Assembly: GCA_017397605.1 (NCBI GenBank)
Contig: JAFQII010000255.1
Coordinates: 1-20,745, forward strand
Direction: 5' to 3'
Length of the DNA stretch: 20,745 bases
Source of the DNA: Clostridia bacterium
GTDB taxonomy: Bacteria > Bacillota > Clostridia > Oscillospirales > CAG-382
The position numbers were made by a program, and so were the translations under genes. Shown piece after piece: positions 1 to 20,745 of this stretch. The notes under the pieces were generated by a model. That model saw only the letters and a list, made by a program, of their open reading frames with translations. It was not told where the DNA came from and searched no databases. Positions within the stretch are counted from its first letter, which is position 1; each line of letters starts with the position of its first letter.

Positions 1-17
1 AAGGGGCGGCGCCCCTT
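1..17 (-). terminator. Probable terminator hairpin at the end of the ADP-ribosylglycohydrolase gene
   Basis: A perfect 7-bp inverted repeat (AAGGGGC, loop GGC, GCCCCTT) overlaps the TAA stop at 16-18. It would fold at the very 3' end of the minus-strand transcript. The T-tract that would prove an intrinsic terminator would lie outside the window, so the call rests on stem strength and position alone. Confidence 0.5.
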
Positions 18-1350
18 AAAGAGAATTCAACTGCTCGCGCAGGGATTTGACTTCTTTTGCAAACGCGCGGATCGAGTAGTTGTCGTACGGTGCGACGCCG
101 ACGCTGAAGGTGTCCTTGATCGCGTCGGACAGATCGACGGGAATGCCTTGTTCGCCCAGCAACGCGCCCATAAACGAGCCGACCGTCGCGCCGTTGCAAT
201 CGGTGTCCATGCCGCATTCCACGGCAAACGCGACCGCGTTTCGGAAATCTTCGGGATAGCGCATGATCGCCGCGATGCAGAACGTCGCGTTGTTGATCGT
301 GTGCACGCCGTTGTATTTCTCCGACGGTGCGAGAATTTTCTCCATCAGCTCCTCGCGCGTTTCGCAGGTTTCCGCAAGGTGCTTTGCCCACAGCACTTCC
401 TCGGCAAAACGGCTCTTTTGGGGAATCGTCGCCAGCGCGATGTCAAAGCACTTGTGTGCGTCTTTATGGACAAATGCCGCGGCAATCATTGCGGCAAAGA
501 ACATCTCGCCGTAGATACCGTTTTTGACGTGCGAGAACGACGCGTCGACGTACGCCAGCTCGGATGCGAGGATCGGCATGCCTGCCGCCACGTAACCAAA
601 CGCGTCCGCGCGAATCTGTGCGCCGATCCACTCGCGGTAGGGGTTGAGGTAGGTCGCGGTCTGCGCTTTTTCCATGACCTCCGCTGCATTTTCGGGCTTG
701 CCCCAAGGCCAGATGTCCTCGCAGTTGATAAAATTGAGGTACGCCTGCGACTCCGCGGTAAACACGTTGCGGAACGGCACGCGGTATGACCACATGTTGC
801 CGATGTCATATGCGTCGATCGCGTAGCCTTTTTCTTTGAGAAGCAGGTAGTTGAGCACCGTAAAGCGCGTGTCGTCGTCCGGCGGCATGCCGCACAGCTT
901 TTCGTCCGAGCTTTCGCGCTCGTTGCGTTTGTCGCCCGAAACGGTGGGAAAATACGAGCGAACGGGGTATTTGCCCGCGTTTTTGTACCACTCGACGATC
1001 GCGGGGTGACGCCAGCCCTCGCAGGGCTGTCCCCACGCACAGCCGATGCATCTGCCCAGCCACGCACCGCTGAAATACGTGTCGTCGACCGGAACGTATT
1101 GGTCCGATTCCAACGCCGAAACGTTGCTTTCTTTTTTGATCTCACTCAGCGCCGTCGGCTCGGCGTACGCAAAATCCGCGCGCATCGGCAGTGCCGTCAG
1201 CTTGTCATAGACTGCCAACAGCTTTGCCTTGTCCGTTCCGCACGCGGCGATCTTGTTTTGCCAATACGCGCGGTCGATCTCTCTGCCTTCCTGCTCCAAC
1301 TGGATCAGCTCTTCTGTCAATAACTGTTCAATTCTTCCGCATCCTGCCAT
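16..1350 (-). CDS. ADP-ribosylglycohydrolase family protein
   Basis: 444 aa. The protein has the two metal-binding signatures of the ADP-ribosylglycohydrolase (ARH/DraG) fold: a DDDT motif near residues 158-161, and GMDTDCNGATVGSFMGA near the C-terminus (D382, D384, N386). In the family these bind two Mg ions and cleave N- or O-glycosidic ADP-ribose bonds; some relatives act on other ribosides, so the substrate here is open. The first ~90 residues are a charged, probably helical extension. The ATG at 1348-1350 is chosen because a GGAGG Shine-Dalgarno (1357-1361) sits 6 nt upstream; an in-frame TTG 8 codons earlier has no such site. A terminator at 1453-1480 separates it from the upstream DUF4855 gene, so it is probably transcribed separately or by read-through. 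No clear promoter was found in the gap. The function in vivo is not known. Confidence 0.85.
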   Translation of the reverse strand: MAGCGRIEQLLTEELIQLEQEGREIDRAYWQNKIAACGTDKAKLLAVYDKLTALPMRADFAYAEPTALSEIKKESNVSALESDQYVPVDDTYFSGAWLGRCIGCAWGQPCEGWRHPAIVEWYKNAGKYPVRSYFPTVSGDKRNERESSDEKLCGMPPDDDTRFTVLNYLLLKEKGYAIDAYDIGNMWSYRVPFRNVFTAESQAYLNFINCEDIWPWGKPENAAEVMEKAQTATYLNPYREWIGAQIRADAFGYVAAGMPILASELAYVDASFSHVKNGIYGEMFFAAMIAAAFVHKDAHKCFDIALATIPQKSRFAEEVLWAKHLAETCETREELMEKILAPSEKYNGVHTINNATFCIAAIMRYPEDFRNAVAFAVECGMDTDCNGATVGSFMGALLGEQGIPVDLSDAIKDTFSVGVAPYDNYSIRAFAKEVKSLREQLNSL

Positions 1351-4248: not shown

Positions 4249-4293
4249 AGTGTTTTTACCTCTTTAAAAAAGTTTTTTTATGAAACAATTTTT

Positions 4294-4755: not shown

Positions 4756-4788
4756 GTTTTTTTGTTTCTCCTGTTGTTTTACACAGCC

Positions 4789-4817: not shown

Positions 4818-4825
4818 GTACTGTT

Positions 4826-5560: not shown

Positions 5561-5574
5561 AAAAACGGAGTGCC

Positions 5575-5709
5575 GTGCTTGCGCACATATGAAGTTGCGG
5601 CTATGCCGCAAATGAAGTTGTCCTTGCGGACAAATGAAGTGCCCTACGGGCAATGAAGTTGTCGCTTACGCGACAAACGATGTTGCGCGCACGGCGCGCA
5701 AACGTTAAG
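5575..5709. repeat. Array of small variable hairpins separated by an ATGAAG spacer (left half)
   Basis: Six successive perfect hairpins: 5575-5586 (GTGC/GCAC), 5595-5611 (TTGCGGC/GCCGCAA), 5618-5633 (TTGTCC/GGACAA), 5640-5652 (TGCCC/GGGCA), 5659-5676 (TTGTCGC/GCGACAA) and 5683-5701 (TTGCGCGC/GCGCGCAA), each with a 3-4 nt loop. The linkers are ATGAAG at 5612-5617, 5634-5639 and 5653-5658, degenerating to ACGATG at 5677-5682. Stem sequences differ from unit to unit, yet nearly all begin TTG and end CAA. There is no open reading frame of note. The function is unknown. Confidence 0.85.
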
Positions 5710-5716
5710 TTGTTTG

Positions 5717-5889
5717 CCCGCGGAAAATCACCATACGTAAACAACTCTCCGTTTGCGCACGAATAGTCCGCAACGCGGACGGGTGCGTAACTTCATTGCA
5801 AGCATCGCTTGCTCTTCATTTGCGGCGCAAGTCGCAACTTCATTTTGACGCGAAAGCGTCAAACTTCATTGACGCCAACGGCGTCACCT
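5717..5889. repeat. 173-bp direct repeat, copy 1, with hairpins in inverted orientation
   Basis: This copy and the one at 5898-6070 match except for six bases, with 8 bp between them. It contains GTCCGC-AAC-GCGGAC inside a larger imperfect stem (TTGCGCAC against GTGCGTAA), then GCAAGC-ATC-GCTTGC, TTGCGGC-GCAA-GTCGCAA, TTGACGC-GAAA-GCGTCAA and GACGCC-AAC-GGCGTC. The linkers are CTTCAT, the reverse complement of the spacer in the left half. Confidence 0.9.
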
Positions 5890-5897
5890 CACCCGTT

Positions 5898-6070
5898 CCC
5901 GCGGAAAATCACCATACGTAAACAACTCTCCGTTTGCGCACGAATAGTCCGCAACGCGGACGGGTGCGTAACTTCATTGCAAGCGCAGCTTGCTCTTCAT
6001 TTGCGGCGCAAGCCGCAACTTCATTTTGACGCAACAGCGTCAAACTTCATTGACGCCAACGGCGTCACCT
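5898..6070. repeat. 173-bp direct repeat, copy 2, ending in the proA stop codon
   Basis: Same layout as copy 1. Loops differ (GCA for ATC, AACA for GAAA) and one stem base differs (GCCGCAA for GTCGCAA, turning a G-U into a G-C pair). The last hairpin (GACGCC-AAC-GGCGTC, 6052-6066) lies 2 bp beyond the proA stop at 6069-6071, so these structures would be in the 3' part of the proBA transcript. Confidence 0.9.
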
Positions 6071-7298: not shown

Positions 7299-8095
7299 AA
7301 CTGTTCCCCCTTGGACATAAAGTACGTTCCGATAAAGGTGCCGTCCATGATCGCGTAGAGCATGGCGGGATCGTCGCCGTTGCAGATGATCATCGGAATG
7401 CCCGCTTCGGTGACGGTCTGCGCGGACTGCAGCTTGGCGACCATGCCGCCCGTTCCGCGCGCCGAGCCTGCACCGCCTGCGCAGGCGAGCAGCTCGGGTG
7501 TGATTTCTTTGACGCAGTCGATCAGCGTTGCGTCGGGGTTTTGTCTCGGGTCTGCGGTGTACAAGCCGTTGATGTCCGACATGTTGATCAGAAGATCCGC
7601 GCCCGACAGCAAGGCGACCACCGCCGCGAGCGTGTCGTTACTGCCGAATTTGATCTGCTCGCCCGAAACGGTGTCGTTTTCGTTGACGATCGGCAAAACG
7701 CCTGCTTCCAGCAGTGTTTCCATCGTGTTTTTGGCGTGCTCGTAGCGCACGCTGTTGTCTACGACGTCCTTGGTCAGCAACAGCTGTGCGATCGTGTGTC
7801 CGTATTGCGCAAACTCGCGGGAATACATGCCCAGAAGGTCGCACTGGCCCACTGCCGCCGCGGCTTGCTTTTGACGCAGGGTCAGCGTCTCTCTGTCAAA
7901 CTGCAGCTTGGACAGACCGCATCCGACCGCGCCCGAGGACACCAGAATGACCTGCACGCCCGTGTTTTTGATGTCCGAAAGACAGCGCGCAAGCTTTTCG
8001 ATCTTGCGCAGGTTCATCGTGCCGTTTTCGTGCGTCAACGTGGAGGTGCCCACCTTGACGACGATGCGGCGTATATGCTCCGTTTTGATTTTCAT
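7295..8095 (-). CDS. proB: Glutamate 5-kinase, short form without PUA domain
   Basis: 266 aa. It phosphorylates glutamate to gamma-glutamyl phosphate, the first and usually feedback-regulated step of proline synthesis. It has the amino-acid-kinase fold throughout: VGTSTLT (15-21), LVSSGAVGCG (51-60), VNENDTV (137-143), FGSNDTLAA (150-158), SDINGLYTADPR (173-184) and GTGGMVAK (214-221). The RNA-binding-like PUA domain found at the C-terminus of the ~367-aa E. coli enzyme is absent; short forms are known. First gene of a proB-proA operon, with its own promoter at 8134-8162. No proC is seen nearby. Confidence 0.95.
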   Translation of the reverse strand: MKIKTEHIRRIVVKVGTSTLTHENGTMNLRKIEKLARCLSDIKNTGVQVILVSSGAVGCGLSKLQFDRETLTLRQKQAAAAVGQCDLLGMYSREFAQYGHTIAQLLLTKDVVDNSVRYEHAKNTMETLLEAGVLPIVNENDTVSGEQIKFGSNDTLAAVVALLSGADLLINMSDINGLYTADPRQNPDATLIDCVKEITPELLACAGGAGSARGTGGMVAKLQSAQTVTEAGIPMIICNGDDPAMLYAIMDGTFIGTYFMSKGEQL

Positions 8096-8112
8096 AAATT
8101 CACGTTTCTCTC

Positions 8113-8141
8113 TTGCTTTTTGTTGTTCAGTTTATTATAAT
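8113..8141 (+). promoter_or_regulatory. Promoter of maf
   Basis: TTGCTT (8113-8118), 17-bp spacer, TATAAT (8136-8141) on the plus strand. It overlaps the proB promoter; the two -10 boxes share the palindromic core ATTATAAT. Confidence 0.6.
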
Positions 8142-8162
8142 AGAACCAGAAGATTTTTGCAA
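8134..8162 (-). promoter_or_regulatory. Promoter of proBA
   Basis: On the minus strand: TTGCAA (8157-8162), 17-bp spacer, TATAAT (8134-8139). About 35-40 nt of leader would precede the proB ATG. It is a close match to sigma-A and overlaps the maf promoter. Confidence 0.7.
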
Positions 8163-8201
8163 TAGCAAATCGCAATTTTTGTTGCCAAAAAAGGAGTTTT
8201 T

Positions 8202-8780
8202 ATGATGACGCAACCGCTTTTGCTCGCGTCCGCCTCGCCGCGGCGCAGGGAAATACTCGAAACGGCGGGCATTCCGTTTGAGGTCTGCCCCTCGTGTGCG
8301 CAAGAAATATGCGCGGACGGCGTTTCTGTCGGAACGCTTGTCACCGAAAATGCAAAGTGTAAGGCGCTGGAGGTTGCGTCACGGAATCCCCGCCGTCTTG
8401 TGCTGGGGGCGGATACGCTGGTCACCGCCGACGGCAAAGCGCTGGGCAAGCCCCGCGACCGCGCGCACGCAAAGGAGATGCTTCGCTTTTTGTCGGGCAG
8501 AACGCACGAGGTGATGACGGGCATTTGCATCACGGACGGAACGCGCACCGAAACCGCCCTCTCCGTCTCGCGCGTCACGTTTCGCACACTGAGCGACGAG
8601 CTGATCGAGCGCTATGCTGCCACGGGCGAGTGCGACGACAAAGCGGGCGCGTACGGCATTCAGGGAAAAGGGTGCATTCTGGTCGAACGGATCGAGGGCG
8701 ATTATTTTTCGGTCGTCGGGCTTCCCGTTTGTTTGGTCTGCCAAATGCTGGAGCGGTTTTTTGGCAGTTTTTCCAATTGA
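8202..8780 (+). CDS. maf: Maf family nucleotide pyrophosphatase
   Basis: 192 aa, usual length. Maf proteins hydrolyse non-canonical or modified nucleoside triphosphates, mainly dTTP/UTP in the YhdE-like branch, as house-cleaning enzymes; several are linked to septum formation. Visible signatures: LLLASASPRRREIL (6-19) with the phosphate-binding Ser/Arg cluster, LGADTLV with D71 as likely catalytic base, GKP at 82-84, SGRTHEVMTG near 98-107, and DKAGAYGIQGKG near 146-157. AAGGAG lies 5 nt before the first of two adjacent ATGs (8202, 8205), so the true start may be either. It is divergent from proBA and shares its promoter region. The -35 box of the next gene overlaps the maf stop codon. Confidence 0.93.
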   Translation: MMTQPLLLASASPRRREILETAGIPFEVCPSCAQEICADGVSVGTLVTENAKCKALEVASRNPRRLVLGADTLVTADGKALGKPRDRAHAKEMLRFLSGRTHEVMTGICITDGTRTETALSVSRVTFRTLSDELIERYAATGECDDKAGAYGIQGKGCILVERIEGDYFSVVGLPVCLVCQMLERFFGSFSN

Positions 8781-8805
8781 CAAGAAAAGTTTGTTACAAT
8801 ATAAT
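8777..8805 (+). promoter_or_regulatory. Perfect-consensus sigma-A promoter for secreted protein A
   Basis: TTGACA (8777-8782), 17-bp spacer, TATAAT (8800-8805). The -35 box overlaps the maf TGA (8778-8780). Transcription would start near 8812, leaving a leader of about 27 nt before the ATG at 8839. Confidence 0.85.
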
Positions 8806-8838: not shown

Positions 8839-11800
8839 ATGAACAGCAAGCGATTTTTCTCTTTGGTGCTGACCGTGCTTTTGCTGCTCGGCGCGCTCCC
8901 GCTTGGGGTAGGCGCAACGGTCGAGGACGACTTCGGCTACGAGATCGAAAACGGCGGTGCGGTCATCACCGCGTATTACGGCTCACATGAGGACCCGTAC
9001 CATCTTACCATCCCGGGGACGCTGGGCGGATATCCCGTTACGGCGATCGACGGATGGGTGTTCCAGTACGTATCGAATCTGGAGCGGATCACGGTTCCCG
9101 GCTCTGTCAGGGAGATCCGTTCGTGTGCCTTTTACGGTTGCCCCGACCTCAAAAAGGTTGTTGCGGAAAGCGGCCTGCAAACGGTCGGCGACGAAGCATT
9201 TGCCTACTGCGGCAAGCTCCAAAGCGTCACCCTGCCCGATACCGTCACCGAGCTTGGCAGCGGTATCTTTTTGAACTGTGAAAACGTCACCTCGTTTTCC
9301 ATCCCCGCAGGCGTCACCGATCTGACGACTGTGTTTGCAAACGCGATCGGACTCCAAACGGTCGCGATCCCCGCGACCGTGCAGATTGTCGGTTATAACG
9401 CATTCTGGTATTGCTCGGAATTGATAAGCGTTACCTTTGATGCAAACAGCACGGTAGAGATCGTTGGCAACGGTGCCTTTGAAGGCTGCTGCCAATTGAC
9501 CTCCATTGCGCTCCCTTCGTCTGTGAAGACGGTCGGCGAATACGCCTTCTCCGGCTGTACCGAGCTCGTCTCCTTTTCTGCGGAGGAAGGACTGGAGCAG
9601 ATCGAGTATTGTGCATTTGCAAGCTGTACGGAGCTGACGAGCGTCAATCTGCCCGACTCGGTGGAGCTTCTGGGGCACAGTCTGTTTGCGGACTGTGAAC
9701 TGCTCAAAACCGTCCGCATCCCCGCAGGCGTGACCGATCTGACAAGCGTGTTTGCGGAGTGCTACGGTCTGACCGAAATCACCATCCCCGCCAATGTGCT
9801 GACCATCAACGGCGCTTTTTACAACTGCGAAAGCCTGCAAAGCGTCACCTTTGAGACGGGACGCAAGTTTAAGAGCATCGGCAGCAATGCGTTTGAGGGT
9901 TGTATCTCGCTGACGGGCATCGAGTTCCCCGCGACGGTCGAAACGATCGAATCCTACGCATTTTTCCGCAGCGGTCTGACGAGCATCTCCCTGCCGTCCC
10001 ACATCAAGACGGTCGAAAACGATGCGTTTTCGTACTGCGAGGAGCTGCAGAGCTTTTCTGCCGAGCAGGGTCTGACGTCGATCGGCTCGTACGCGTTTGA
10101 GCATTGCACCGCGCTGCACGAGGTATTGCTTCCCGACAGCGTAACATATATCGACTACTACGCCTTTGCTGAGTGCGAGAGCCTGTCTTCGGTTGAGATT
10201 CCCGCAGGGATTACGGATTTGGGCGGTATTTTTGCGCTGTGCAACGGTTTGCAGACCATCCACATTCCCGAAACCGTCACCGTCATCGGCTCGTCCGCAT
10301 TCTACGGATGCACCAATCTCAGAAACGTTACCTTTGCAAAGAATGTAAACGTCACCACCATCGGCGACAATGCGTTCCACGACTGCGACTCGCTGACGTA
10401 TTTTGAGATCCCCGAAACGGTTGAAACGGTGCAATGGGAAGTGTTTGCGGATTGTGATGCGCTGATTACGGTGGTGATCCCCGAAAGCGTACAATCGATC
10501 TATAACAATCCATTTTACGGATGTGTCAGTCTCTCCAATCTCTATTTTGAAGTGAGCGCACCGCCCGAAAGCTGGGGCGACCTTTATTGGCTGGAGGAAA
10601 CCGACGCGGACGTGTACTGGGATTATTTCATTCCCTGCAAGCACCGTTTTGTCAAGCTGGCGGGCTGTCCCGCGACCTGCACGACCGTCGGTTACAACGC
10701 CGTCGTCTGCAAAAAATGCGGTATTGATCTGGAATACGAGGTTATTCCCGCGCTGACGCACAGCTACCGGACCGCAGTGGAGGTCGAGCCCGGCTGTACG
10801 ACCGAAGGCAGGACGCGTTATATCTGCGACCTTTGCGGCGACAGCTATGTCGTCACGACTCCCGCGGCAGGCCATACCGAGACCGAGACTTATGTTGCAC
10901 CCACCTGCACGCAGTCGGGCTCCTACCGTCTGACCTGTGCGGTCTGCAAGCAGATTCTGAGCGCGGCCGACTATGCGCCGCTTGCGCATTCCTACAACAG
11001 CGAAATGACCGTGCCCGCAACCTGCACTGCAAACGGCACGCTGACGTACACCTGCACCACCTGCGGTGATACGTATTTTGAAGTGATCGACGCGCTCGGA
11101 CATAACTACGTTTGCACCGAGACGCTGCCCGTCACCTGCACGCAGGACGGCATCGACACTTATCTCTGCACCAATTGCGGAGAGGGCTACACCCGCACCG
11201 TTACGGCAAAAGGGCACAGCTACCTCAAAACCGAGACGCAGGGTGCGGCTTGCACGCAAAACGGCTCGGTTGTTGCCGTCTGTGAAATCTGTGGCGACAG
11301 CTACACCGATCTCATCCCCGCATACGGGCACACGACCGAAACCGTTACGACAAAAGCCACCTGCGTTTCGGACGGCTCTGTTTCGATCGTCTGCACTGTT
11401 TGCGGCGAAACGGTTTCCCACACGGTGATCCCCGCGGCGGGACATGCGTTTGTGACCGAACGTACCGAGGCGGACTGCGATTCGGACGGAACTGCGACGC
11501 ACACCTGCACGGTTTGCGGATATACCGAGACCGAGGTCACGGCGCCGGCGTGCCATGCTTACGAAACGGCCGAGGTCATGCCGACCTGCGTTTCGGACGG
11601 CTTCCGTCGGATCGCCTGCACGCGTTGCGGTGTCATTCTGCTGGATGAGAAATTTGCGGCATACGGGCACAATTACGTCAAAAACGAGACAGTCACGCTT
11701 CCGACCTGTACGGAAAGCGGATACGTCACGGTCGAATGCGAGCGTTGCGGCGATCTGTTTGCCGAAACGCGTCCCGCGGTCGGACACAGCATTTGCGAAA

Positions 11801-12795
11801 CGCGCGTCCACGCCACCTGCACGGCGGAAGGCTTTGTGCAGACCGAATGTACCGTTTGCGGCGAGATCATGTCGTACACGGCGATTCCGCCGATGGGGCA
11901 TACCATGAGCGAGTGGACGGTCAGCAAGGAACCGACCTGCACCGAGCACGGCATCCGCACAAGACACTGTATCTACTGTCCCGATGCGGGTGAAAGCGAG
12001 CTGATTACGGCGGCAGGCCACCGCGAGACGCTCGAATCCTCGGTTGACACTTCCTGCACCGCGGCGGGTTCTGTCACGTTTGCATGTACCGTCTGCGGCA
12101 GCAAGCGCACCGAGGCGGTTCCCATGGCAGTACATCAATATAATAAAGAAGGCATTTGCATCAACTGCGGCACGGAGCACGGCATTTGCATCACCGTCGG
12201 CAGCATCAGCGCATCGGCGGGCGAGACCGTGACGGTTGAATTGCTTGTGGAGCACAACAGCGGATTTGCGTACCTCAATCTGGACCTTTTGTACGATCAG
12301 ACCGCACTGGAGCTGCTTTCGGTCGAAAACGGCACGCTGTTTGACAACTTTGTGCAGGGCGACCATTGCATCTGGGCGTCGGCAGAGAACGTGACTGCGG
12401 CGGGTGTGCTTGCGACGCTGACCTTTGCGGTAAAAGAAACCGCGGCAAACGGCAGCTACGGCGTTGCGGTGTACGAAAACGAGTGCGTCTCCGACGCGGA
12501 GCAAAGACTTGCGGTCTATGTGACGGACGGCTTTGTTTCGGTCGAGAGCTGTATGTACGGCGACGTCAACGGCGACGGCATCATCGGCGGTATGGACGCG
12601 ACCAGACTGCTTCGCTATCTCGCATATTTTGATCCGTTTGCCGGCAGCTCCGAAATCGAAATCGGCGCGGGCGCGGATTGCAACGGCGACGGCAAGATCA
12701 GCGGTGCGGACGTCACGAGACTGTTGCAGTATCTTGCTTATCAAAATCCCCTCACGGGCGAGTCGACCGTTGTGTTGGGCCCTGCGGCAGGTTAA
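8839..12795 (+). CDS. Secreted protein A: BspA-type LRR, His/Cys repeats, cohesin-like domain, dockerin
   Basis: 1318 aa. Residues 1-26 are a signal peptide (charged start, hydrophobic core, VGA/T cut). Residues ~40-590 are BspA-type leucine-rich repeats (LRR_5; pattern AFxxCxxLxxVxLPxSVxxI), known in other bacteria from adhesion proteins. Residues ~600-1116 hold 13 full and one partial ~38-aa repeats with one His and three Cys each (H, then CTxxG, then CxxCG). Residues ~1117-1236 look like a cohesin: AGETVTVELLVEHNSGFAYLNLD-type strands. Residues 1239-1318 are a type I dockerin with two Ca-binding loops (DVNGDGIIGGMD and DCNGDGKISGAD). The ATG at 8839 is chosen for the signal peptide and the AAAGGA site 8 nt upstream; the frame is open further upstream but overlaps maf there. 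No catalytic domain, SLH or sortase motif is seen. It is probably a cell-surface adhesin or adaptor. Confidence 0.88.
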   Translation: MNSKRFFSLVLTVLLLLGALPLGVGATVEDDFGYEIENGGAVITAYYGSHEDPYHLTIPGTLGGYPVTAIDGWVFQYVSNLERITVPGSVREIRSCAFYGCPDLKKVVAESGLQTVGDEAFAYCGKLQSVTLPDTVTELGSGIFLNCENVTSFSIPAGVTDLTTVFANAIGLQTVAIPATVQIVGYNAFWYCSELISVTFDANSTVEIVGNGAFEGCCQLTSIALPSSVKTVGEYAFSGCTELVSFSAEEGLEQIEYCAFASCTELTSVNLPDSVELLGHSLFADCELLKTVRIPAGVTDLTSVFAECYGLTEITIPANVLTINGAFYNCESLQSVTFETGRKFKSIGSNAFEGCISLTGIEFPATVETIESYAFFRSGLTSISLPSHIKTVENDAFSYCEELQSFSAEQGLTSIGSYAFEHCTALHEVLLPDSVTYIDYYAFAECESLSSVEIPAGITDLGGIFALCNGLQTIHIPETVTVIGSSAFYGCTNLRNVTFAKNVNVTTIGDNAFHDCDSLTYFEIPETVETVQWEVFADCDALITVVIPESVQSIYNNPFYGCVSLSNLYFEVSAPPESWGDLYWLEETDADVYWDYFIPCKHRFVKLAGCPATCTTVGYNAVVCKKCGIDLEYEVIPALTHSYRTAVEVEPGCTTEGRTRYICDLCGDSYVVTTPAAGHTETETYVAPTCTQSGSYRLTCAVCKQILSAADYAPLAHSYNSEMTVPATCTANGTLTYTCTTCGDTYFEVIDALGHNYVCTETLPVTCTQDGIDTYLCTNCGEGYTRTVTAKGHSYLKTETQGAACTQNGSVVAVCEICGDSYTDLIPAYGHTTETVTTKATCVSDGSVSIVCTVCGETVSHTVIPAAGHAFVTERTEADCDSDGTATHTCTVCGYTETEVTAPACHAYETAEVMPTCVSDGFRRIACTRCGVILLDEKFAAYGHNYVKNETVTLPTCTESGYVTVECERCGDLFAETRPAVGHSICETRVHATCTAEGFVQTECTVCGEIMSYTAIPPMGHTMSEWTVSKEPTCTEHGIRTRHCIYCPDAGESELITAAGHRETLESSVDTSCTAAGSVTFACTVCGSKRTEAVPMAVHQYNKEGICINCGTEHGICITVGSISASAGETVTVELLVEHNSGFAYLNLDLLYDQTALELLSVENGTLFDNFVQGDHCIWASAENVTAAGVLATLTFAVKETAANGSYGVAVYENECVSDAEQRLAVYVTDGFVSVESCMYGDVNGDGIIGGMDATRLLRYLAYFDPFAGSSEIEIGAGADCNGDGKISGADVTRLLQYLAYQNPLTGESTVVLGPAAG

Positions 12796-12810
12796 TTTTG
12801 TACTTTTTAC

Positions 12811-12841
12811 AAGGCGATCGGATTCGATCGCCTTTCTTTTT
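12811..12841 (+). terminator. Strong intrinsic terminator after secreted protein A
   Basis: A 10-bp perfect stem (AAGGCGATCG 12811-12820, loop GATT, CGATCGCCTT 12825-12834) is followed by TCTTTTTTT. It lies 15 bp past the stop codon. Confidence 0.93.
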
Positions 12842-12874
12842 TTACATTTGAAACAAAAAAAGTGATCAATATGC

Positions 12875-12903
12875 TTGACAAATCCAACTCAAACGGCTAT
12901 AAT
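12875..12903 (+). promoter_or_regulatory. Perfect-consensus sigma-A promoter for secreted proteins B and C
   Basis: TTGACA (12875-12880), 17-bp spacer, TATAAT (12898-12903). Transcription would start near 12910, leaving about 60 nt of A-rich leader before the ATG at 12972. Confidence 0.85.
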
Positions 12904-12923
12904 GAGTTATAAGTATCCCTTGC

Positions 12924-12955
12924 TGTAAAAAATAAAATAAAATAAAATTTTTACA
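12924..12955 (+). promoter_or_regulatory. AT-rich 5' leader hairpin with pentamer repeats
   Basis: TGTAAAAA (12924-12931) and TTTTTACA (12948-12955) can pair as an 8-bp stem; the 16-nt loop is made of tandem ATAAA units. It ends two bases before the GGAGG ribosome-binding site (12957-12961). A role in mRNA stability or in keeping the start site open is inference. Confidence 0.5.
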
Positions 12956-12971
12956 CGGAGGAAAAACAGCG

Positions 12972-15900
12972 ATGAAAAAAACCCTATCCCTGGTTTTGAT
13001 GCTCTGCATGCTCGTATCGGTTGCAGCACCGGCACTTGTGTTTGCAGAAGCAGGCAAAGCGGTCACCGTTAATGTCGGTGATGTCCCTGTCGCTTTTGAT
13101 GAGGCAAAGCTCGATCTGCTTGCAGACGGCAACACCGCATCCGATGCGACTGCTTTCTCCAACGCAGGCCTTGTTGGTTTTGAAAACAAAGGCTTTACGC
13201 ACACTGATGGCGTGGATGCCGCAGTCGAAGCTACGTTTGAGATTATTCTTGATCTCGGCGAAGTGCAGACGATCGGCTCGATCTCTCTGGATGCTTATAA
13301 AGAATCCAACAGCATGATCGCGCTTCCCACCGTCAACTACTATGTTTCTGTCGATGGTGTCAACTACTATCAGATCAACGCGGGCGGCAAGGTGAGCCCT
13401 GCGGCTGATGCGGCAGAAAGCAAAGTTCACACGCTTAAGGCAGACTTCTCTACCAGAATTGCTGTCGAAGCGCAGTACGTCAAAGCAGTTGTCAGCTTCA
13501 AAAACGGTTGGGTATTCCTGTCCGAGCTTTCTGTCGGCGCAGGCAACGAGACCGTAGCGAGCGAAGCTCCCGACAAAGCTTATCCCTACTCCAGACACAC
13601 CGTTCCCAACCCCGGTGTCGGTATCTTTGATATTGGCGACGGCGTTTTGGATCTTGCAGTCAACGACGGTACGACCGGTCAATTGTTCCGCAATGCACAG
13701 TTGATCAAAGCTGCATATGATGCAGAGCTTGGCGCGTACGTGATCGAATACAGCAAGGTCAACCCCTGGCCGGACGGACACAGCGGTACCGAAGAACTTG
13801 CAGAGGGTGAGATCCTTGTTGCGATCTCTACCGGCGGCGTCGTCACGTCCGACGAATTCTCCGGTTGCAAGTGGATCGCACGCGGTCTGACTGCAGGCGA
13901 CCTGATCGTTTTGAACGAAGACACGATTCAGTTCCTCCCCGCAGGCGCACTTGTTCCCGAAGTTCCGGACAAACCCGAACCCGTTGAGCTTCCCGAAGGC
14001 GCACTCCTTCTTGACTATGCAGGCTATAAGCATGCAGGTGTCAACTCTATTGTTGCAGGTGACGGCATGACCGTTTCCGAGCTGACCGCTCTCGGCAACG
14101 ACGGCAACGCAAAAGATATGAACTATGCGTATATCGTTGTTGTTGACGCTGACAATGTGGTTGTTCAGACCTGGTGCGAGCTCTCTGTTGCGAAGTCTGA
14201 CGTTGTATGCCCCGAAGGCGGCTACATCATCTCCTTCAACGGCAACAAAGACGGCTACAAGGATCTTGCGGCGATCAAAGAAGGCGCGGTTATCACGCTC
14301 TACAATGTCGATGTTGACGCGTTCCGCGGCGCAGAAGGCAACTACGAGCTGACAAACGCAGGCTTTACTTATGAGAATCCTGCAGTAGACGAGCCCGTGA
14401 CACCTCCCGTAGCGGTTGAAAAACCCGAAAACGCAGAGATGTTCTGGGTAACCCACTATGAGAATAACACGGTAGAAGGCTCCGGCGTTATCTTTACCCA
14501 GCCTTACTCCGGCGCGGTTTGGTGGCTCCACTTTGCATTTGCACCGATCGATGGCGTCGAAAACGCATACGAGATCGTTGAGATTTCCAACGGCCTTTCC
14601 GACGGTTCCGGCACTGCTCTTGCAATCCCCGAAGGCGGTTTTGTATGGGCAACCAACACCGGCAACGACTATCCCACTCTCGGCATGGATGGTCCCGACT
14701 ACACCAGCCCCAACTGCAACGACGCGATCGGACGTGCGTTGAATTGGGCAATCGGTGATCAGTTTGTGGTCGGCGGCTTTGACTTTGTCAATGTTCCCAC
14801 CTCTACTCCCGATGTAGACTGGTACGACGATGCATACGTTTGCACCGCATGGATCGCTCCTTATGTCGATGAGGAAGAACCCGTAGTTCCCGAACCTCCC
14901 GTAGCAGGCGGCAACCTTGCAGCAGGCAAGGATTATACCACTTCTGCTATTTACACGACCAACGGCGTTCAGAACTGGCCCGATGAAGGCGGCGTGACTC
15001 TGACCGACGGCATCAAGGCTGCTGCAGGTGCCGGTTATACGGATACAGCATGGGTCGGCTTTAACAAGCAGAGCCCCGATTATGATGCATCCGAAGGCGG
15101 CTTCGGCGCAACGGTTGTGATCAACCTCGGCGCTGTCGCAGATCTCTCCAAGGTTGTATTTACCGCATTCGGCGGCGCTGTAGACGGTATCAATGCTCCT
15201 TACTGGGTCAACCTCTACGCATCCTCTGACAACGAGAACTTTACGTTTGCAGGTTCTCTCGAAATCGATCCTTCCGAGGCTGTTGCAGGCTCCAACGAAT
15301 ACACTGTAGAAACCGTTGCTTCTGCACAGTATGTCAAGGTTTGCTTCTACGGCTACGGCTGGATCTTTGTCGACGAGATCGAGATCTACGGCGCAGAAGG
15401 CACGGATACTCCTGTTGATCCCGAGCCTCCCGTTGATCCCGAACCCGAAAACAAGACCTACGAAAACACCATGGTAAAAGGCGAAGACGGCAACTTCTCT
15501 TGCGAAGTTCCCTACGGCTTTACTTGGGTAATTGACGATCTCAACGGCTCCATCGGCGGTGAAGATAACACCATCTGCACCACGCAGGATGCTTACAACG
15601 CATGTAACCCCAACTGGGCGATCACCATTTATGCTGAGAAGCAGGCTGACGGCACTTACGTTGCACTCAAAGATGCAATCGTAACTCCCGGCTCTGCTGC
15701 AAATGCAGGTATCACCATCGGTGAGAACCAGATCGCAATCGTTATGCACTCCGCATACTCCAACCCCAACGGCACCAACTGGGAGTCCAAGGTTGTTGCA
15801 ATGGCAGTCAAGGCAGGCGACGTCCTCGTCGTTGATATGGACGCTATGACTGTATACGCACCCATTCCCGGCGAAGATATCGTTCTTCCCGAGCCTCCCG

Positions 15901-18275
15901 TAGATCCCGAAGAACAGATTACGACCGTTGTTGAGACGATTGTCAACGATGACAACACCGTGACCGTAAACGTTTCCTTTGCAGGCATCGTTTCCGAGCT
16001 CACCGGCGCAAGCGCAAAACTGTACTTTGACGGCGCAGTTCTGACGCTCCTCAACGAGATCAAGAAGGATAACGCTATCGATTGCCTTGTCAAGGTTCCC
16101 AGCGAAAAGTGGGAGAACCTCACTTCTCTCTCTGCTGACGGCTCTTACATCGCAATCAACGTATGCATTACCGAGGATGTAGATGCAATTCTTGCAGACG
16201 GCAACCTCGTACTGTCCTTTACCTTTGCAATCAGCGCAGGCTACGAGACCACTTTGGTTGAAGTAACTGACGTTGAATTCCTTGACACGAACATCGATTA
16301 CGTTTACGGCAACGGTTCTGCAGTCGAGATCGAGCTCCCCGAGCAGGAAATTCCCGACGAGCCTACCAACCTCGTAGCAGGCAAAGACTGGACCGGCGAC
16401 ACCAACATCGGTACCTCGTATGTCGGCAACCTGACCGACGGCGTGATCGAGCCCGACGGCAAGTACGACACGACTCTCTGGTACGGTGCAGACAACAGAC
16501 TGGATGACAACGGCGCATTCACGATGATCTTTGATCTCGGCGGCAAGTACAGCGTCAGCGAAGTTCTTGCACACGTATGGCCCGCAGGTCACTCCGGCAT
16601 TGTCATTCCCGCATCTATCGACGTTTATGTATCCGTAGACGGCGAAAACTATGAGCTGTACGGTTCTGTTTCCGAGTTCGACGGCACTTCTCCCCAGTGG
16701 GTAAGATTTGCTGAAGGCAGTGTTGATGCAACGCACGTACGCGTTGATATGGTCGGCGGCGAGCCCGGCGTATTCTGGTTCGCATCCGAAATCGAGGTAT
16801 ACGGCGTTCCCGCAACCGCAGAGCCCGAGCCTCCCGTAGATCCCGAAGTTCCCACCGGTTCCGAATCCCTGATTCCCGGCGAAGGCGCTAACTGGATCAA
16901 AACCGACCACGGCGACGTATCCGTTGACGTGATCTACAACGAAGACGGTTCTGTAACCTTTACCGGTTCCGTATCCGGCACCTGGCCTTGCGTTGAAACC
17001 TGGTACATCGATACCCCGATCATCGCAGACACGCTGGATGACTACCTGTCCATCGACTTTACGGTCGCAGGCGGTACCACCAACATCAACTTCTTCTTTG
17101 ATGACGGCAATGGCGGCAGCGTAAGCTTCTCCATTTCCAACACCGCACTCAACGCAGCATGCCCCGGCGCTCCCATTGACGCAGGCAGCGGCGACATCTA
17201 TGACGGCACTTACAAGTGCAACATTTCGATCGCAGACTTGATTGCTTCCACGATGAATCTCTACGACCAAGCATTCCCCGAAGCTGCAATCATCGACGGC
17301 ACTGTCAAGTTTATCGGTATCAACGTTTACTCCGTCAACGGCGCGACCATCACGGTCAACGACCTGAGCGTTGTACACGTTTCCGAAGAAGAACCCGAAC
17401 CTCCCGTAGATCCCGAAGACCCCGAGACTCCCGCAGGCACCATCAACGTTGACGGTAAGCTTGACGAGAATGCATACGACAATGCAGTCTGGTTCGATAA
17501 GGGTGTATGGCAGTCGGTCGGCGAAACCTCTCCGATTCTTGCAGATCTTGACATCGCTTACACGACGCTTGCAGACGCAGAGAACATCTACCTTGCAATC
17601 CGCGTCAACAAGGGCGTAGATTTCAAGACTGCGCTCAATCCCGATGCTTGGGATCAGTCCGGCGCAACCAACTTCCGTCTCTGGTTCAAGGGCGACGGCA
17701 TGGAATCCCGTGTATTCTATGACCTGCTCTGGAACGGCGAAGAGTTTGCTCCCTTCCTGATCAAGAAGCCCACCGAACAGATGACCTATGCGGCTACCTA
17801 CGGCGACGACTATATCGCTCTGGAAGTCAAGATTGCAAAGGCAGATCTCTCCATCACCGACTCCTTTGAGATGATGGTTACCTACTCCACGCCTTACTGC
17901 GGCGAGGGTGAGAACGTTGGTTACAACGCATTCCACATGACCTCGTTCGTACGCGGCGAGGACGGCGCGCTTCCTTCCGGTTGGTCCGGCAACACCTCTA
18001 TGTACGAGTCCTACAATGTTGAAGACATCACGCTTGCAGAGGTTGCTCTCGGCGACGTCAACGGCGACGGCAAGATCAGCTCTCTCGACGTTGTGAAACT
18101 GCTCAACTACCTGGCAAACTACAACTACGCAGACGGTACTTGCGACGTTGAGATTACCGAGGGTGCAGACGTGACCGGCGACGGCATCGTAGACGGCAGA
18201 GACTCTGTCCGCTTGCTCAAGTACCTCGCAAACCGCGATCCCGCGACCGGCGAGTCCAGCGTAGAGCTCGGCTGA
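12972..18275 (+). CDS. Secreted protein B: discoidin-like, cohesin-like, CBM9-like and dockerin modules
   Basis: 1767 aa. Signal peptide 1-25 (VFA/E cut). Modules in order: discoidin-like (F5/8 type C) ~28-192; an unrecognised module ~209-322; again ~344-470; again ~487-632; discoidin-like ~649-811; the module a fourth time ~828-967; cohesin-like ~982-1126; discoidin-like ~1131-1281; an unassigned beta-rich domain ~1296-1470; CBM9/DOMON-like ~1489-1687 (starts INVDGKLDENAYDNAVW); dockerin ~1692-1767 (DVNGDGKISSLD and DVTGDGIVDGRD). Linkers are Pro/Glu-rich (PEPPVDPE). The discoidin and CBM9-like folds suggest glycan binding; no enzyme domain is seen. GGAGG stands 10 nt before the ATG, and the promoter is at 12875. 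Codons are strongly biased, suggesting high expression. Protein C follows after 47 bp without a terminator. Domain limits are estimated by eye. Confidence 0.85.
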   Translation: MKKTLSLVLMLCMLVSVAAPALVFAEAGKAVTVNVGDVPVAFDEAKLDLLADGNTASDATAFSNAGLVGFENKGFTHTDGVDAAVEATFEIILDLGEVQTIGSISLDAYKESNSMIALPTVNYYVSVDGVNYYQINAGGKVSPAADAAESKVHTLKADFSTRIAVEAQYVKAVVSFKNGWVFLSELSVGAGNETVASEAPDKAYPYSRHTVPNPGVGIFDIGDGVLDLAVNDGTTGQLFRNAQLIKAAYDAELGAYVIEYSKVNPWPDGHSGTEELAEGEILVAISTGGVVTSDEFSGCKWIARGLTAGDLIVLNEDTIQFLPAGALVPEVPDKPEPVELPEGALLLDYAGYKHAGVNSIVAGDGMTVSELTALGNDGNAKDMNYAYIVVVDADNVVVQTWCELSVAKSDVVCPEGGYIISFNGNKDGYKDLAAIKEGAVITLYNVDVDAFRGAEGNYELTNAGFTYENPAVDEPVTPPVAVEKPENAEMFWVTHYENNTVEGSGVIFTQPYSGAVWWLHFAFAPIDGVENAYEIVEISNGLSDGSGTALAIPEGGFVWATNTGNDYPTLGMDGPDYTSPNCNDAIGRALNWAIGDQFVVGGFDFVNVPTSTPDVDWYDDAYVCTAWIAPYVDEEEPVVPEPPVAGGNLAAGKDYTTSAIYTTNGVQNWPDEGGVTLTDGIKAAAGAGYTDTAWVGFNKQSPDYDASEGGFGATVVINLGAVADLSKVVFTAFGGAVDGINAPYWVNLYASSDNENFTFAGSLEIDPSEAVAGSNEYTVETVASAQYVKVCFYGYGWIFVDEIEIYGAEGTDTPVDPEPPVDPEPENKTYENTMVKGEDGNFSCEVPYGFTWVIDDLNGSIGGEDNTICTTQDAYNACNPNWAITIYAEKQADGTYVALKDAIVTPGSAANAGITIGENQIAIVMHSAYSNPNGTNWESKVVAMAVKAGDVLVVDMDAMTVYAPIPGEDIVLPEPPVDPEEQITTVVETIVNDDNTVTVNVSFAGIVSELTGASAKLYFDGAVLTLLNEIKKDNAIDCLVKVPSEKWENLTSLSADGSYIAINVCITEDVDAILADGNLVLSFTFAISAGYETTLVEVTDVEFLDTNIDYVYGNGSAVEIELPEQEIPDEPTNLVAGKDWTGDTNIGTSYVGNLTDGVIEPDGKYDTTLWYGADNRLDDNGAFTMIFDLGGKYSVSEVLAHVWPAGHSGIVIPASIDVYVSVDGENYELYGSVSEFDGTSPQWVRFAEGSVDATHVRVDMVGGEPGVFWFASEIEVYGVPATAEPEPPVDPEVPTGSESLIPGEGANWIKTDHGDVSVDVIYNEDGSVTFTGSVSGTWPCVETWYIDTPIIADTLDDYLSIDFTVAGGTTNINFFFDDGNGGSVSFSISNTALNAACPGAPIDAGSGDIYDGTYKCNISIADLIASTMNLYDQAFPEAAIIDGTVKFIGINVYSVNGATITVNDLSVVHVSEEEPEPPVDPEDPETPAGTINVDGKLDENAYDNAVWFDKGVWQSVGETSPILADLDIAYTTLADAENIYLAIRVNKGVDFKTALNPDAWDQSGATNFRLWFKGDGMESRVFYDLLWNGEEFAPFLIKKPTEQMTYAATYGDDYIALEVKIAKADLSITDSFEMMVTYSTPYCGEGENVGYNAFHMTSFVRGEDGALPSGWSGNTSMYESYNVEDITLAEVALGDVNGDGKISSLDVVKLLNYLANYNYADGTCDVEITEGADVTGDGIVDGRDSVRLLKYLANRDPATGESSVELG

Positions 18276-18322
18276 TTGAATCGTAAAACAAAAAAGCAAA
18301 AATAAACCAAGGAGACCCCAAA

Positions 18323-19540
18323 ATGAAAAAAATTCTTACCGTATTGCTTGCACTGCTTACGATGGCAGTTCTGGCAACCACCGTTGCAGCAGAAGAGCCT
18401 GCAACTCTTAAGGTCAGCTTCGGCGAAGCTGTCTACAACGAAGATGGCACCGTTAGCATGGATCTCATCGTTGATGAGAACCCCGGCTTTGCTATCCTCT
18501 CCGTTTTCCTCGATTATGACACGAATGTCATTACCGAATGGAAGGCAGTAAACGCAAACAGCAAGCTTACCCAGACTGCAGGCTACGGCCTGATCTACAG
18601 CATGGATGGCAACTTTACCGAAACCGGTAAGATCGCTACCATCACCTTCACGCTTGTTGAAAACGCTCCTCACGGCAACCTTGTTGTTACCCTTCTGGAC
18701 GGCGTCAACTTTGAAGGCACCCCCAACCGTGACTGTGTCAACTACGACGAAGAAACTATCAATGTTGAAGTTGAAGACGGCACCATCGCAATCGCTCACG
18801 ACCTCGTTCACGTAGAAGCTGTTGAGGCTACCTGCGAGAAAGAAGGTAACGTTGAGTACTGGTACTGCAAGGACGAAGCTTGCGGCCTCGTATGGGAAGA
18901 CGAAGCACTGACGATCGTTTCCAACCACAAGAACGTTAAGCGTGGCGTGAAGGAACACACCGTTGTTGCTATGGATGCAGTTGCTCCCGGTTGCCACAAC
19001 ACCGGTAACGTCGCTTACTGGTTCTGCTCCGTTTGTAACGCAGTCTGGACCGACGAAGAGTGCACGCAGGTTTCCAACCATCTGAGCGTAGTCCTTCCCG
19101 AACTTGGCGGCGACGTCATCCACGTAGAAGCTAAGGCTGCTACCAAGGAAGAAGAGGGTGTTAAGGAACACTGGTACTGCGAAGAATGTGAAAAGGTTTG
19201 GGAAGACGAGGCTCGTACTCAGCTCAGCAACCACAAGAACGTGATCATTCCCAAGCTTCCCGAGTTTGCACTTGCAGACGTTAACGGCGACGGCGAAGTC
19301 AATGGTCTTGACTACATGCTCGTTAAGAGACATGTTCTCGGTACTCACGAAATGACCGAAGAGCAGAGCGCAAGAGCTGACCTCGACGGCAACGGCGTGA
19401 TCGAAGGTCTTGACTACATGTTCGTTAAGAGAGCAGTTCTCGGCACCTGGCCCGTAGTAGAAGATGAGCCCGATGCAGGCGAAGGCGAAAACACCGAAAA
19501 CACTGAAGGTGAAAACACCGACGCAAGCGACGCTGAATAA
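18323..19540 (+). CDS. Secreted protein C: cohesin-like domain, His/Cys repeats, dockerin
   Basis: 405 aa. Signal peptide 1-23 (VAA/E cut). Residues ~26-156 form a cohesin-like beta sandwich (DENPGFAILSVFLDYD, then GKIATITFTL, as in protein A). Residues ~160-311 hold three ~50-aa repeats related to those of protein A: H163/C171/C182/C187, H212/C224/C235/C238 and H267/K274/C286/C289, each ending in SNH. The third has lost one Cys. Residues 319-375 are a dockerin with two nearly identical halves (DVNGDGEVNGLDYMLVKR and DLDGNGVIEGLDYMFVKR). The tail 379-405 is acidic low complexity. AAGGAG is 8 nt before the ATG. It is probably co-transcribed with protein B and ends at the terminator at 19565. 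Codon choice is the most biased in the window, with Ala almost only GCT/GCA. The small size suggests an adaptor linking other dockerin and cohesin proteins. Confidence 0.87.
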   Translation: MKKILTVLLALLTMAVLATTVAAEEPATLKVSFGEAVYNEDGTVSMDLIVDENPGFAILSVFLDYDTNVITEWKAVNANSKLTQTAGYGLIYSMDGNFTETGKIATITFTLVENAPHGNLVVTLLDGVNFEGTPNRDCVNYDEETINVEVEDGTIAIAHDLVHVEAVEATCEKEGNVEYWYCKDEACGLVWEDEALTIVSNHKNVKRGVKEHTVVAMDAVAPGCHNTGNVAYWFCSVCNAVWTDEECTQVSNHLSVVLPELGGDVIHVEAKAATKEEEGVKEHWYCEECEKVWEDEARTQLSNHKNVIIPKLPEFALADVNGDGEVNGLDYMLVKRHVLGTHEMTEEQSARADLDGNGVIEGLDYMFVKRAVLGTWPVVEDEPDAGEGENTENTEGENTDASDAE

Positions 19541-19564: not shown

Positions 19565-19597
19565 AAAGCGAGATGCATTTTGCATCTCGCTTTTTTT
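19565..19597 (+). terminator. Strong intrinsic terminator after secreted protein C
   Basis: A 13-bp perfect stem (AAAGCGAGATGCA 19565-19577, loop TTT, TGCATCTCGCTTT 19581-19593) runs into a T-tract. It closes the B-C transcription unit. Confidence 0.95.
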
Positions 19598-19762: not shown

Positions 19763-20617
19763 TTATCTTGCTTTGTTGTACACGCTGTACTCGTCCCAGA
19801 GCTGTTCCAGGCGCGAAAGGCGCGCGGCGCACTCGTCGGGACGCCTTGCCGCAATCGCGGCAACCAGGGCGTTTACGACCGCCATGGGCGCTACCAGCGA
19901 GTCGACAAAGCCTTCGTTCTCGTTGTGCGCGTAGATCGCCGTGTCCGCAAGCGGTGCAAGCGGGCTGTGCGCGCTGTCCGTGATCGCGCAGATGTAAGCG
20001 CCTTGCTTGCGCGAGTAATCCAGCGCGTCGACCGTTCGGCGGGAATACCGCGGGAACGAAATGCCGATGATCACGTCTTCCTCGCTGACCGACAGCAGTC
20101 TGTCAAACACCTCGCCGCCCAGCGCGATCTGTACCAATCGCACGTCGTCAAACAGCTGCGACAGATAAAAATCCAAAAAGATCGCAAGCGACAGCGAGCT
20201 TCTCGCGCCGATGACGTAGATGCGTCTTGCGGCGATCAGCTTTTCCGCGATCGTATCAAAGGTGCTTGCGTCCGTTTCGGCAAGCGTTTTTTTGATGTTC
20301 TCAAGGTCGGCGTGCATACTGCGCGCAAACGCTTCGGCACCCGTGGACGCGTGGGACATCTCCATTCTCTGCAGGGAAGTCAGCGAGCCGCGGATCGACT
20401 CCTTGAGTGCGGTCTGCAGTTCGGGATAGCCGCGGTAGCCGAGCTCTGCGGCGTAACGCACCACGGTGGATTCCGACGTGCCGACCACGGATGCAAGCTT
20501 GGCGGCAGTCATACCCGCCGCGGTTGCGTAATGATCCAGCAGATATCTGCCGATCTTTTTTTGTGCCTTGGAGCCTGTCGAGAGACGTTCTTCAATCAAC
20601 TGCAACGCATCACACAT
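19763..20617 (-). CDS. MurR/RpiR family transcriptional regulator
   Basis: 284 aa, normal length. An N-terminal HTH_6 domain (about residues 10-80) holds the helix-turn-helix TAAKLASVVGTSESTVVRYAAELGY at about 37-61. A C-terminal SIS domain (about 131-230) has the sugar-phosphate-binding pattern RIYVIGARSS at the start and ICAITDS near 209-215. Members sense phosphosugars and control sugar or amino-sugar uptake and catabolism; the ligand and targets cannot be read here. The ATG at 20615-20617 is preferred over an in-frame TTG five codons earlier because GAGGAA (20625-20630) stands 7 nt upstream. That site overlaps the stop codon of the glycyl-tRNA synthetase gene, so the two are probably one operon. 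No sugar-transport gene lies next to it in the window. Confidence 0.9.
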   Translation of the reverse strand: MCDALQLIEERLSTGSKAQKKIGRYLLDHYATAAGMTAAKLASVVGTSESTVVRYAAELGYRGYPELQTALKESIRGSLTSLQRMEMSHASTGAEAFARSMHADLENIKKTLAETDASTFDTIAEKLIAARRIYVIGARSSLSLAIFLDFYLSQLFDDVRLVQIALGGEVFDRLLSVSEEDVIIGISFPRYSRRTVDALDYSRKQGAYICAITDSAHSPLAPLADTAIYAHNENEGFVDSLVAPMAVVNALVAAIAARRPDECAARLSRLEQLWDEYSVYNKAR

Positions 20618-20628
20618 GGTTTCGTTCC

Positions 20629-20745
20629 TCAATATGCGATGCGCTCTTCGATGACCTTTTTGAGGTCTGCGATCGGAACGCGGATCTGTTCCATCGTGTC
20701 GCGGTCGCGCACGGTGACACAGCCGTCGGTTTCGCTGTCAAAGTC
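20629..20745 (-). CDS. glyQS: Glycine--tRNA ligase, C-terminal end (partial)
   Basis: Only the last 38 codons and the TGA stop are present; the gene continues past the right edge. The peptide contains TVRDRDTMEQIRVPIADLKK, which matches the C-terminal anticodon-binding domain of the single-chain, dimeric class II glycyl-tRNA synthetase (often named glyS or glyQS). It charges tRNA-Gly. Its stop is 11 nt from the start of the RpiR-family gene and overlaps that gene's ribosome-binding site, so translation is probably coupled. A regulator of sugar genes behind a tRNA synthetase is an unusual pairing. Confidence 0.8.
   Translation of the reverse strand, partial: DFDSETDGCVTVRDRDTMEQIRVPIADLKKVIEERIAY

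Follow-up and report, generated by a model that had tools for sequence, protein, structure and literature searches.

Cohesin-dockerin pairs have mainly been studied as enzyme scaffolds. The published record, in the portions of the cited papers on which we draw throughout, already holds adaptors that combine a single cohesin with a single dockerin, cohesin-dockerin units, leucine-rich repeat (LRR) proteins with dockerins, cohesins anchored by transmembrane (TM), S-layer homology (SLH) or sortase elements, and a genome, presumably non-cellulolytic, that encodes as many as 39 dockerin proteins (PMC4081043, PMC5301203, PMC2930009, PMC11557425). Uses of these modules outside cellulosomes have been reported as well (PMC12997984, PMC9012536, PMC10553843). 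In Ruminococcus flavefaciens, most LRR dockerins bound no tested cohesin, and two from group 1a did (PMC5301203, table). In the open-licence literature, in the parts available to us, we found no description of a gene pair for an LRR-dockerin protein and an anchored cohesin. Here we analyze three adjacent genes, encoding proteins A, B and C, in a 20,745-nucleotide stretch of DNA (hereafter the window) from an uncultured member of the Clostridia (assembly GCA_017397605.1, contig JAFQII010000255.1).

Each of the three proteins combines one cohesin and one dockerin with no detected catalytic domain. On balance it is probable that they belong to a non-cellulosomal cohesin-dockerin system displaying large, non-catalytic, adhesin-like proteins, in which F-type cohesins would pair with alpha-class dockerins, C would act as an adaptor and A as a chain extender. 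At the level of sequence, the modules, the two dockerin classes, the gene linkage, the anchors in relatives and the joining of an F-type cohesin to a beta dockerin in C are established.

Domain content of proteins A, B and C

Protein A (1318 residues; 8839..12795, forward strand, as for all features below unless noted) consists of a signal peptide, a BspA-type LRR region, Cys/His repeats, an F-type cohesin and an alpha-class dockerin. The LRR_5 region spans 8917..10635 (Pfam LRR_5, E 2.6e-128; limits set by sequence reading) and is followed by a Cys/His repeat spacer of 512 residues with 14 CxxC motifs (10636..12171). The cohesin lies at 12190..12534 (PF00963, E 2.4e-10, 41.2 bits against a cut-off of 24.1) and the dockerin at 12556..12783, beginning 7 residues beyond the Pfam cohesin match; PF00404 covers 12556-12735 (Dockerin_1, E 1.3e-10) and the alpha model extends to 12783.

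Protein B (1767 residues; 12972..18275) carries a signal peptide, one or more F5/8 type C (discoidin) domains, a W-type cohesin at 15909..16334 and an alpha dockerin at 18048..18272 (PF00404, Dockerin_1, E 3e-10). Its best F5/8 type C match is at 16455..16757 (PF00754, protein-level E 1.2e-13). Protein C (405 residues; 18323..19540) has a signal peptide, an F-type cohesin (18404..18793), a spacer of three Cys/His, zinc-ribbon-like repeats (18797..19261) and a beta-class dockerin with the motifs DYMLVKR and DYMFVKR (19274..19441; PF00404, Dockerin_1, E 2e-16). All three dockerins are of type I (PF00404), with the duplicated calcium-binding repeat, and score above the Pfam cut-off. The signal peptides were called by reading the sequence, and the Pfam scan found no catalytic domain in A, B or C at its cut-off.

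An initial annotation of this DNA had described three adjacent secreted proteins, each pairing a single cohesin-like domain with a dockerin at the C-terminus and showing no visible catalytic domain, accompanied by LRRs, discoidin folds and His/Cys repeats. The positions, Pfam matches, profiles and predicted folds agree with that layout, with LRR_5 in A, F5/8 type C in B and Cys/His repeats in A and C. The module content of a monovalent adaptor (one cohesin, one dockerin, no catalytic domain) is thus present in C, and also in A and B.

The cohesin of A is recognized by Pfam. In B and C no Pfam cohesin was detected at E<=0.1, and their assignment as cohesins is supported by held-out profiles and predicted folds. 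The domain of C scored 59.6 bits against a profile built from five other cohesin segments of the source genome, with C excluded. Its nearest homologues (P0002-P0004 and P0007) likewise have no precomputed PF00963 match, and the more distant P0005, with the layout of C, carries one. The domain of B scored 52.5 bits (E 4.2e-15) against the W-type cohesin profile, built with B excluded from relatives' segments that all come from PF00963 matches and have a Trp-Glu/Asp motif in common.

The AlphaFold2 model of C, from 23 sequences, has a mean predicted local distance difference test (pLDDT) value of 82, with 83-95 in each block of 10 residues from 31 to 160, and cohesin-bearing structures make up 50 of the 50 Foldseek matches listed from the Protein Data Bank (PDB). 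For B (residues 975-1135, 9 sequences, mean pLDDT 80) the top 11 matches are cohesins. Comparison of the B and C regions with cohesin structures was among the checks that the initial annotation had suggested, and in both cases the best PDB matches are cohesins.

From rank 12 the matches of B include collagen-adhesin domains. These matches would suit the reading that W-type domains such as that of B, and perhaps the F-type, are adhesin beta-sandwiches of a general kind that share the cohesin fold and have host or matrix ligands, not dockerins, as partners. Several W-type proteins, moreover, appear by reading to bear discoidin domains, and P0057 and P0058 carry PF00754. Among solved structures at E<=0.01, however, the family profiles A2 (including C) and A3 (including B) match nothing but chains of cohesins or scaffoldins (distinct sequences, 25 and 13 respectively; two of these matches have the molecule name endoglucanase and are yet titled cohesins), and the top fold matches point the same way. 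Furthermore, the W-type is found in 23 of 24 genomes of the genus (30 of 60 genomes overall), where C-like dockerins are also abundant. We therefore regard a purely adhesive role of these domains as very improbable.

Dockerin classes and the candidate adaptor

The source genome comprises 1.71 Mb in 300 contigs and is estimated to be 61% complete, a limit that applies to every absence reported for it. It contains 37 PF00404 matches, 35 of which fall into two classes, 15 alpha and 20 beta; the other two are a truncated match on contig C292 and a weak second match in an LRR protein of 1014 residues. The alpha profile was built from 16 dockerins, 15 from this genome and one from G009, a genome of the same genus, and each of the 15 scores above 129 bits with it. 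The beta class, which includes C, was defined by reading from its DYxxxK motif.

The proteins that carry the two classes differ. Alpha dockerins accompany LRR_5 in 8 of 15 proteins, a cohesin in 7, F5/8 type C above cut-off in 2 and a transglutaminase-like domain in 1. The cohesins are F-type in A and at loci L055 (two in one protein), L056 and L057 (truncated by the contig end), and W-type in B, L070 and the 1014-residue protein of L059. Beta dockerins occur with Glucosaminidase (2), GH25, Amidase_3, CAP, GDSL, Lipase_3, NAGPA, LRR_5 (1) and the cohesin of C, and perhaps constitute a dockerin system for wall-type hydrolases. The beta-dockerin loci are L057, L058, L060-L063, L065-L068, L072-L075 and L078-L081, and in some of these proteins the dockerin is N-terminal. 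Directly 3' of the two-cohesin, scaffold-like protein of L055 lies a frame of about 621 residues (L055 1-1987, minus strand), truncated by the contig end, with a perfect promoter ahead of it and a beginning much like that of B (MKKALSLILMLVMVFS...).

Could the trio instead be part of a conventional cellulosome or amylosome for polysaccharide breakdown, its enzymes being encoded in the 39% of the genome that was not recovered? Cellulosomes of R. flavefaciens too have LRR-dockerin and adaptor proteins, and binding to scaffoldin cohesins has been reported for two LRR dockerins of that species (PMC2930009, PMC5301203, PMC4081043). At 61% completeness the absence of plant-polysaccharide enzymes is also weak evidence. 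Nevertheless, a glycoside hydrolase for plant polysaccharides was found on 0 of the 35 dockerin proteins scanned, the hydrolases present being wall-type, lipase-like or NAGPA, and Merdimmobilis hominis, described below, retains a pair of LRR-dockerin and anchored-cohesin genes without any other Pfam dockerin match. The same 35 proteins gave no match to a carbohydrate-binding module. No protein of the recovered genome carries more than two cohesins (L055), and the combination of a multi-cohesin primary scaffoldin with a carbohydrate-binding module was not seen. A degradative complex of this kind is, in our judgment, highly doubtful, and the earlier suggestion of a non-cellulosomal assembly holds within the limits of this incomplete genome.

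Against the alpha profile the dockerins of A and B score 134.9 and 129.6 bits and that of C 15.1 bits, and the cohesin of B is of a different type from those of A and C. The cohesin of C has closer counterparts at the N-termini of other scaffold-like proteins than in A. Because A and B belong to one dockerin class and C to the other, with cohesins in different groups, a closed ring of A-B-C contacts, one of two arrangements first proposed, is not supported and we reject it. In the recovered genome C is the sole protein with an F-type cohesin and a beta dockerin. Since it alone joins an A-like cohesin to this class, C looks like a candidate class-switching adaptor, as judged from the sequence classes. 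Of the three proteins to which an adaptor role was originally assigned, C suits it best; A and B, adhesin-like proteins with a cohesin in addition, look like displayed or chain-extending units.

In the assembly that we propose, F-type cohesins would take up alpha dockerins, and C would be a monovalent adaptor whose cohesin captures alpha-dockerin proteins and whose beta dockerin inserts into an assumed cell-bound receptor, common to wall-type enzymes. A docked A could then provide, with its cohesin, a socket for a further alpha dockerin. Proteins with a cohesin directly ahead of their dockerin (dyads) may in this way extend into chains or branches, capped by dockerin-only LRR or discoidin proteins. 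In relatives, a directly anchored cohesin would replace the adaptor.

Gene pairs in relatives and setting of the locus

Relatives provide both versions of C and anchored cohesins. PF00963 matches occur in 44 of the 60 genomes searched, the source genome included. Homologues of C (P0002, 87%; P0003, 82%; and the more remote P0004 and P0007) have an identical layout. In P0010 and P0017 a C-like cohesin and C-type repeats are joined to a further cohesin and to an alpha dockerin, and in P0008, P0009, P0039 and P0041 a cohesin and C-type repeats are followed by a C-terminal membrane segment. Cell-anchored cohesins are thus present in relatives, where several W-type cohesin proteins terminate in a common membrane segment. 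Given the occurrence of W-type cohesins in 23 of 24 genomes of the genus, many of them with a membrane segment at the C-terminus, a TM-anchored W-type cohesin is a plausible, if unproved, receptor for beta dockerins; none was detected in the source genome. In G009 the sole alpha dockerin and both F-type cohesins reside in two neighbouring genes, one for a cohesin with an alpha dockerin and the other for a cohesin with a beta-like dockerin, resembling the end of A and protein C, respectively. Also in this genus, G009:C3 1434-9134 holds a frame of about 2957 residues with many tandem C-type Cys/His repeats and a dockerin near its end.

A collection of named species was scanned with the A-type cohesin-dockerin dyad, giving six loci that are not a random sample, since they were picked by dyad similarity. 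One of them, in SIG690, is a contig also found in G009, and four others show pairing of dockerin and cohesin genes. SIG626 has consecutive genes for LRR-cohesin-dockerin, LRR-dockerin and cohesin-TM proteins; in SIG480 an LRR-cohesin-dockerin gene is followed by a cohesin-SLH gene; and in a sheep Ruminococcus it is followed by a cohesin-dockerin gene. In M. hominis An559 an LRR-dockerin gene precedes one for a cohesin with Cys/His repeats and a sortase-type VPQTGD end. The sixth locus, L200, encodes two cohesins with a hydrophobic segment near the end, and no dockerin was detected there.

Whole-genome Pfam counts of dockerins and cohesins (E<=0.001; genome completeness not stated) are 1/1 in M. 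hominis, 2/2 in SIG480, 17/9 in SIG626, 59/8 in the sheep Ruminococcus and 23/2 in SIG690. M. hominis is therefore the minimal case. Its one dockerin and one cohesin, encoded by adjacent genes, could pair only with each other, unless divergent modules escaped Pfam. Two serine-recombinase genes (Resolvase and Recombinase) follow this pair (L263:5170-12248), so the cassette may be mobile.

Across 123 scanned loci, there are 27 same-strand pairs of open frames, one with a dockerin and its partner with a cohesin, that lie within 200 bases of each other; 22 loci in 20 genomes remain after removal of the rows from the source genome and of the duplicate L093/L196. The displayed proteins of such pairs vary and also include GDPD, SH3/cadherin-like and Ig-like proteins. 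Three loci from three other families of the order (L216, L229 and L239) pair an SH3/cadherin-like/Ig-like dockerin protein with a cohesin-cadherin-like protein that has a hydrophobic segment near its C-terminus.

The close coupling of cohesin and dockerin could instead mean that the A-type dyad cohesin stabilizes its own dockerin, like the X-module in XDoc, so that A and B merely dock and no chain forms. A query of W-type cohesin plus alpha dockerin retrieved 54 proteins, of which 53 have an alpha dockerin scoring 44 bits or more; in 23 of these 53 an F-type cohesin ends 1-7 residues ahead of the dockerin, a short and uniform gap. The spacing is similarly tight, at about 3-5 residues, in five dyads of SIG626. 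When dyads, scored as cohesins with any dockerin no more than 25 residues away, are mapped on a tree of 60 cohesins, this state needs 7 changes against a shuffled mean of 20.3, with 0 of 500 shuffles as low; near-copies favour such clustering and bootstrap support is unsettled. XDoc dyads are moreover already known (PMC5301203). On the other hand, a socket role suits the finding that this cohesin type also exists by itself, on TM, SLH and sortase-type anchors encoded next to genes for dyad or dockerin proteins. In addition, many alpha dockerins lack a neighbouring cohesin, and P0095 and P0090 place two or three cohesins ahead of the dockerin (three in P0090). We consider the stabilizer unlikely, and the chains suggested by the initial annotation are plausible, as cohesin-dockerin dyads recur beside cell-anchored single cohesins in relatives.

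Several observations weigh against the display system and its class pairing. The pairing of F-type cohesins with alpha dockerins is inferred from architecture and linkage; on such complexes PMC9112005 and PMC9765747 offered nothing. Above 100 bits, alpha dockerins occur among the 60 genomes only in the source genome G000 (15) and G009 (1), being weaker in two others, and F-type cohesins only in G000 (5, plus the truncated one at 82 bits) and G009 (2), being weaker in seven others; their co-occurrence is partly built in, since both models derive from these two genomes, and carries little weight. No anchored cohesin was found in the source genome, so the receptor for beta dockerins is assumed, and 10 of the 20 beta proteins show no further Pfam domain at the thresholds applied. 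A and B-C appear as separate transcripts.

Gene adjacency, too, is only modestly enriched. Among non-cohesin neighbours, a dockerin is present in 8 of 172 at distance 1, compared with 9 of 556 for distances 2-6. When genes were called automatically, 16 of 111 cohesin genes at loci of unnamed relatives had a same-strand dockerin neighbour; the caller overlooks part of the pairs visible as open frames and can be misled by long antisense frames. Adjacency was rejected as a general rule. In a test of 16 gene pairs, the two cohesins proved to be each other's best match in 5 (L083, L201 and L224, together with L087 and L113, both without a detected dockerin) and close in another 4 (L093, L197, L198 and L213); the other 7, including A-C and A-B, are neither.

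Transcription signals probably set A apart from B and C. A perfect sigma-70 consensus promoter (TTGACA-17-TATAAT) lies 5' of A at 8777..8805, and a terminator-like hairpin accompanied by a T run lies 3' of it at 12811..12834. A second perfect promoter precedes B (12875..12903), and a hairpin closes C (19565..19593). B and C are separated by 47 bases, with an AAGGAG resembling a ribosome site ahead of C. From this arrangement, A is probably transcribed alone and B-C probably form an operon; a single A-B-C operon is unlikely in view of the two perfect promoters and of the hairpin between A and B. Such promoters are not confined to dockerin genes: contigs of the source genome totalling 232,448 bases contain 15 copies of TTGACA-16..18-TATAAT, 11 of them ahead of other genes. 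Minus-strand open frames antisense to A (8983-12744, 1253 residues) and B (12984-18299, 1771 residues) are most likely by-products of codon use and no genes. The surrounding genes (1-8780 and 19763-20632) we take to encode an ADP-ribosylglycohydrolase-like protein, ProA, ProB, a Maf-like protein and an RpiR-like regulator, with presumably a sporulation sigma-like factor at 4826-5515; none is tied to the cohesin-dockerin finding.

Comparison with described systems

A broader proposal, which we offer tentatively, is that non-covalent fibres on the surface of gut Clostridia arise by cohesin-dockerin polymerization. An anchored cohesin or a C-like adaptor would take up LRR-cohesin-dockerin dyads head to tail, and LRR or discoidin proteins with a dockerin only would serve as caps. 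The pair of LRR-dockerin and anchored-cohesin genes would be a recurring, possibly mobile cassette, reduced in M. hominis to one plug and one socket, and such cohesins may be the missing kind of partner for the unbound LRR dockerins of R. flavefaciens. If true, the display or chaining of LRR and discoidin adhesins by cohesins and dockerins would be a separate route of surface assembly beside pili and S-layers.

Protein C resembles the monovalent adaptor scaffoldins such as ScaC of R. flavefaciens (term from PMC11557425), which have one cohesin and one dockerin, are non-catalytic and have been proposed to switch type. C differs in its three Cys/His spacer repeats and in having LRR and discoidin proteins, and not cellulases, as company. 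Similarly, the ScaO-like Coh1-Doc1 bi-domain proteins of Acetivibrio (PMC11557425) are large and multidomain and end, as A does, in a cohesin-dockerin unit. Acetivibrio is a cellulosome producer, whereas the remainder of A is LRR and its dyad recurs on many LRR and Ig-like proteins.

Non-cellulosomal systems offer further parallels. Clostridium perfringens forms pairwise glycosidase complexes through CohX (X82) and dockerins (PMC12997984), and the CohX fold is the best PDB match of B; those cohesins are on glycoside hydrolases, in contrast to A, B and C, which carry none. The Limousia mucinolysome (PMC12997984) is alike in being a non-plant use of cohesins and dockerins by a gut bacterium, with an adaptor to a cell-wall anchor. 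It displays mucin-degrading enzymes, and the main text of that paper mentions neither LRR nor discoidin domains. Non-cellulosomal cohesin and dockerin sets are also reported from ANME archaea and their sulfate-reducing partners, those of the sulfate reducers among putative adhesins (PMC9012536, PMC10553843). These are other lineages, and the portions of the two papers that we consulted do not describe a cassette of LRR-dockerin and anchored-cohesin genes.

A parallel for the gene pair is offered by R. flavefaciens itself, in which LRR-dockerin proteins and the sortase-anchored, single-cohesin ScaE exist as here (PMC2930009, PMC5301203). Its LRR dockerins are many and most of those tested bound no cohesin offered (PMC5301203), a question that the present loci make testable. 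The difference is that in several of the genomes described here the LRR-dockerin gene directly adjoins that of a candidate cohesin partner.

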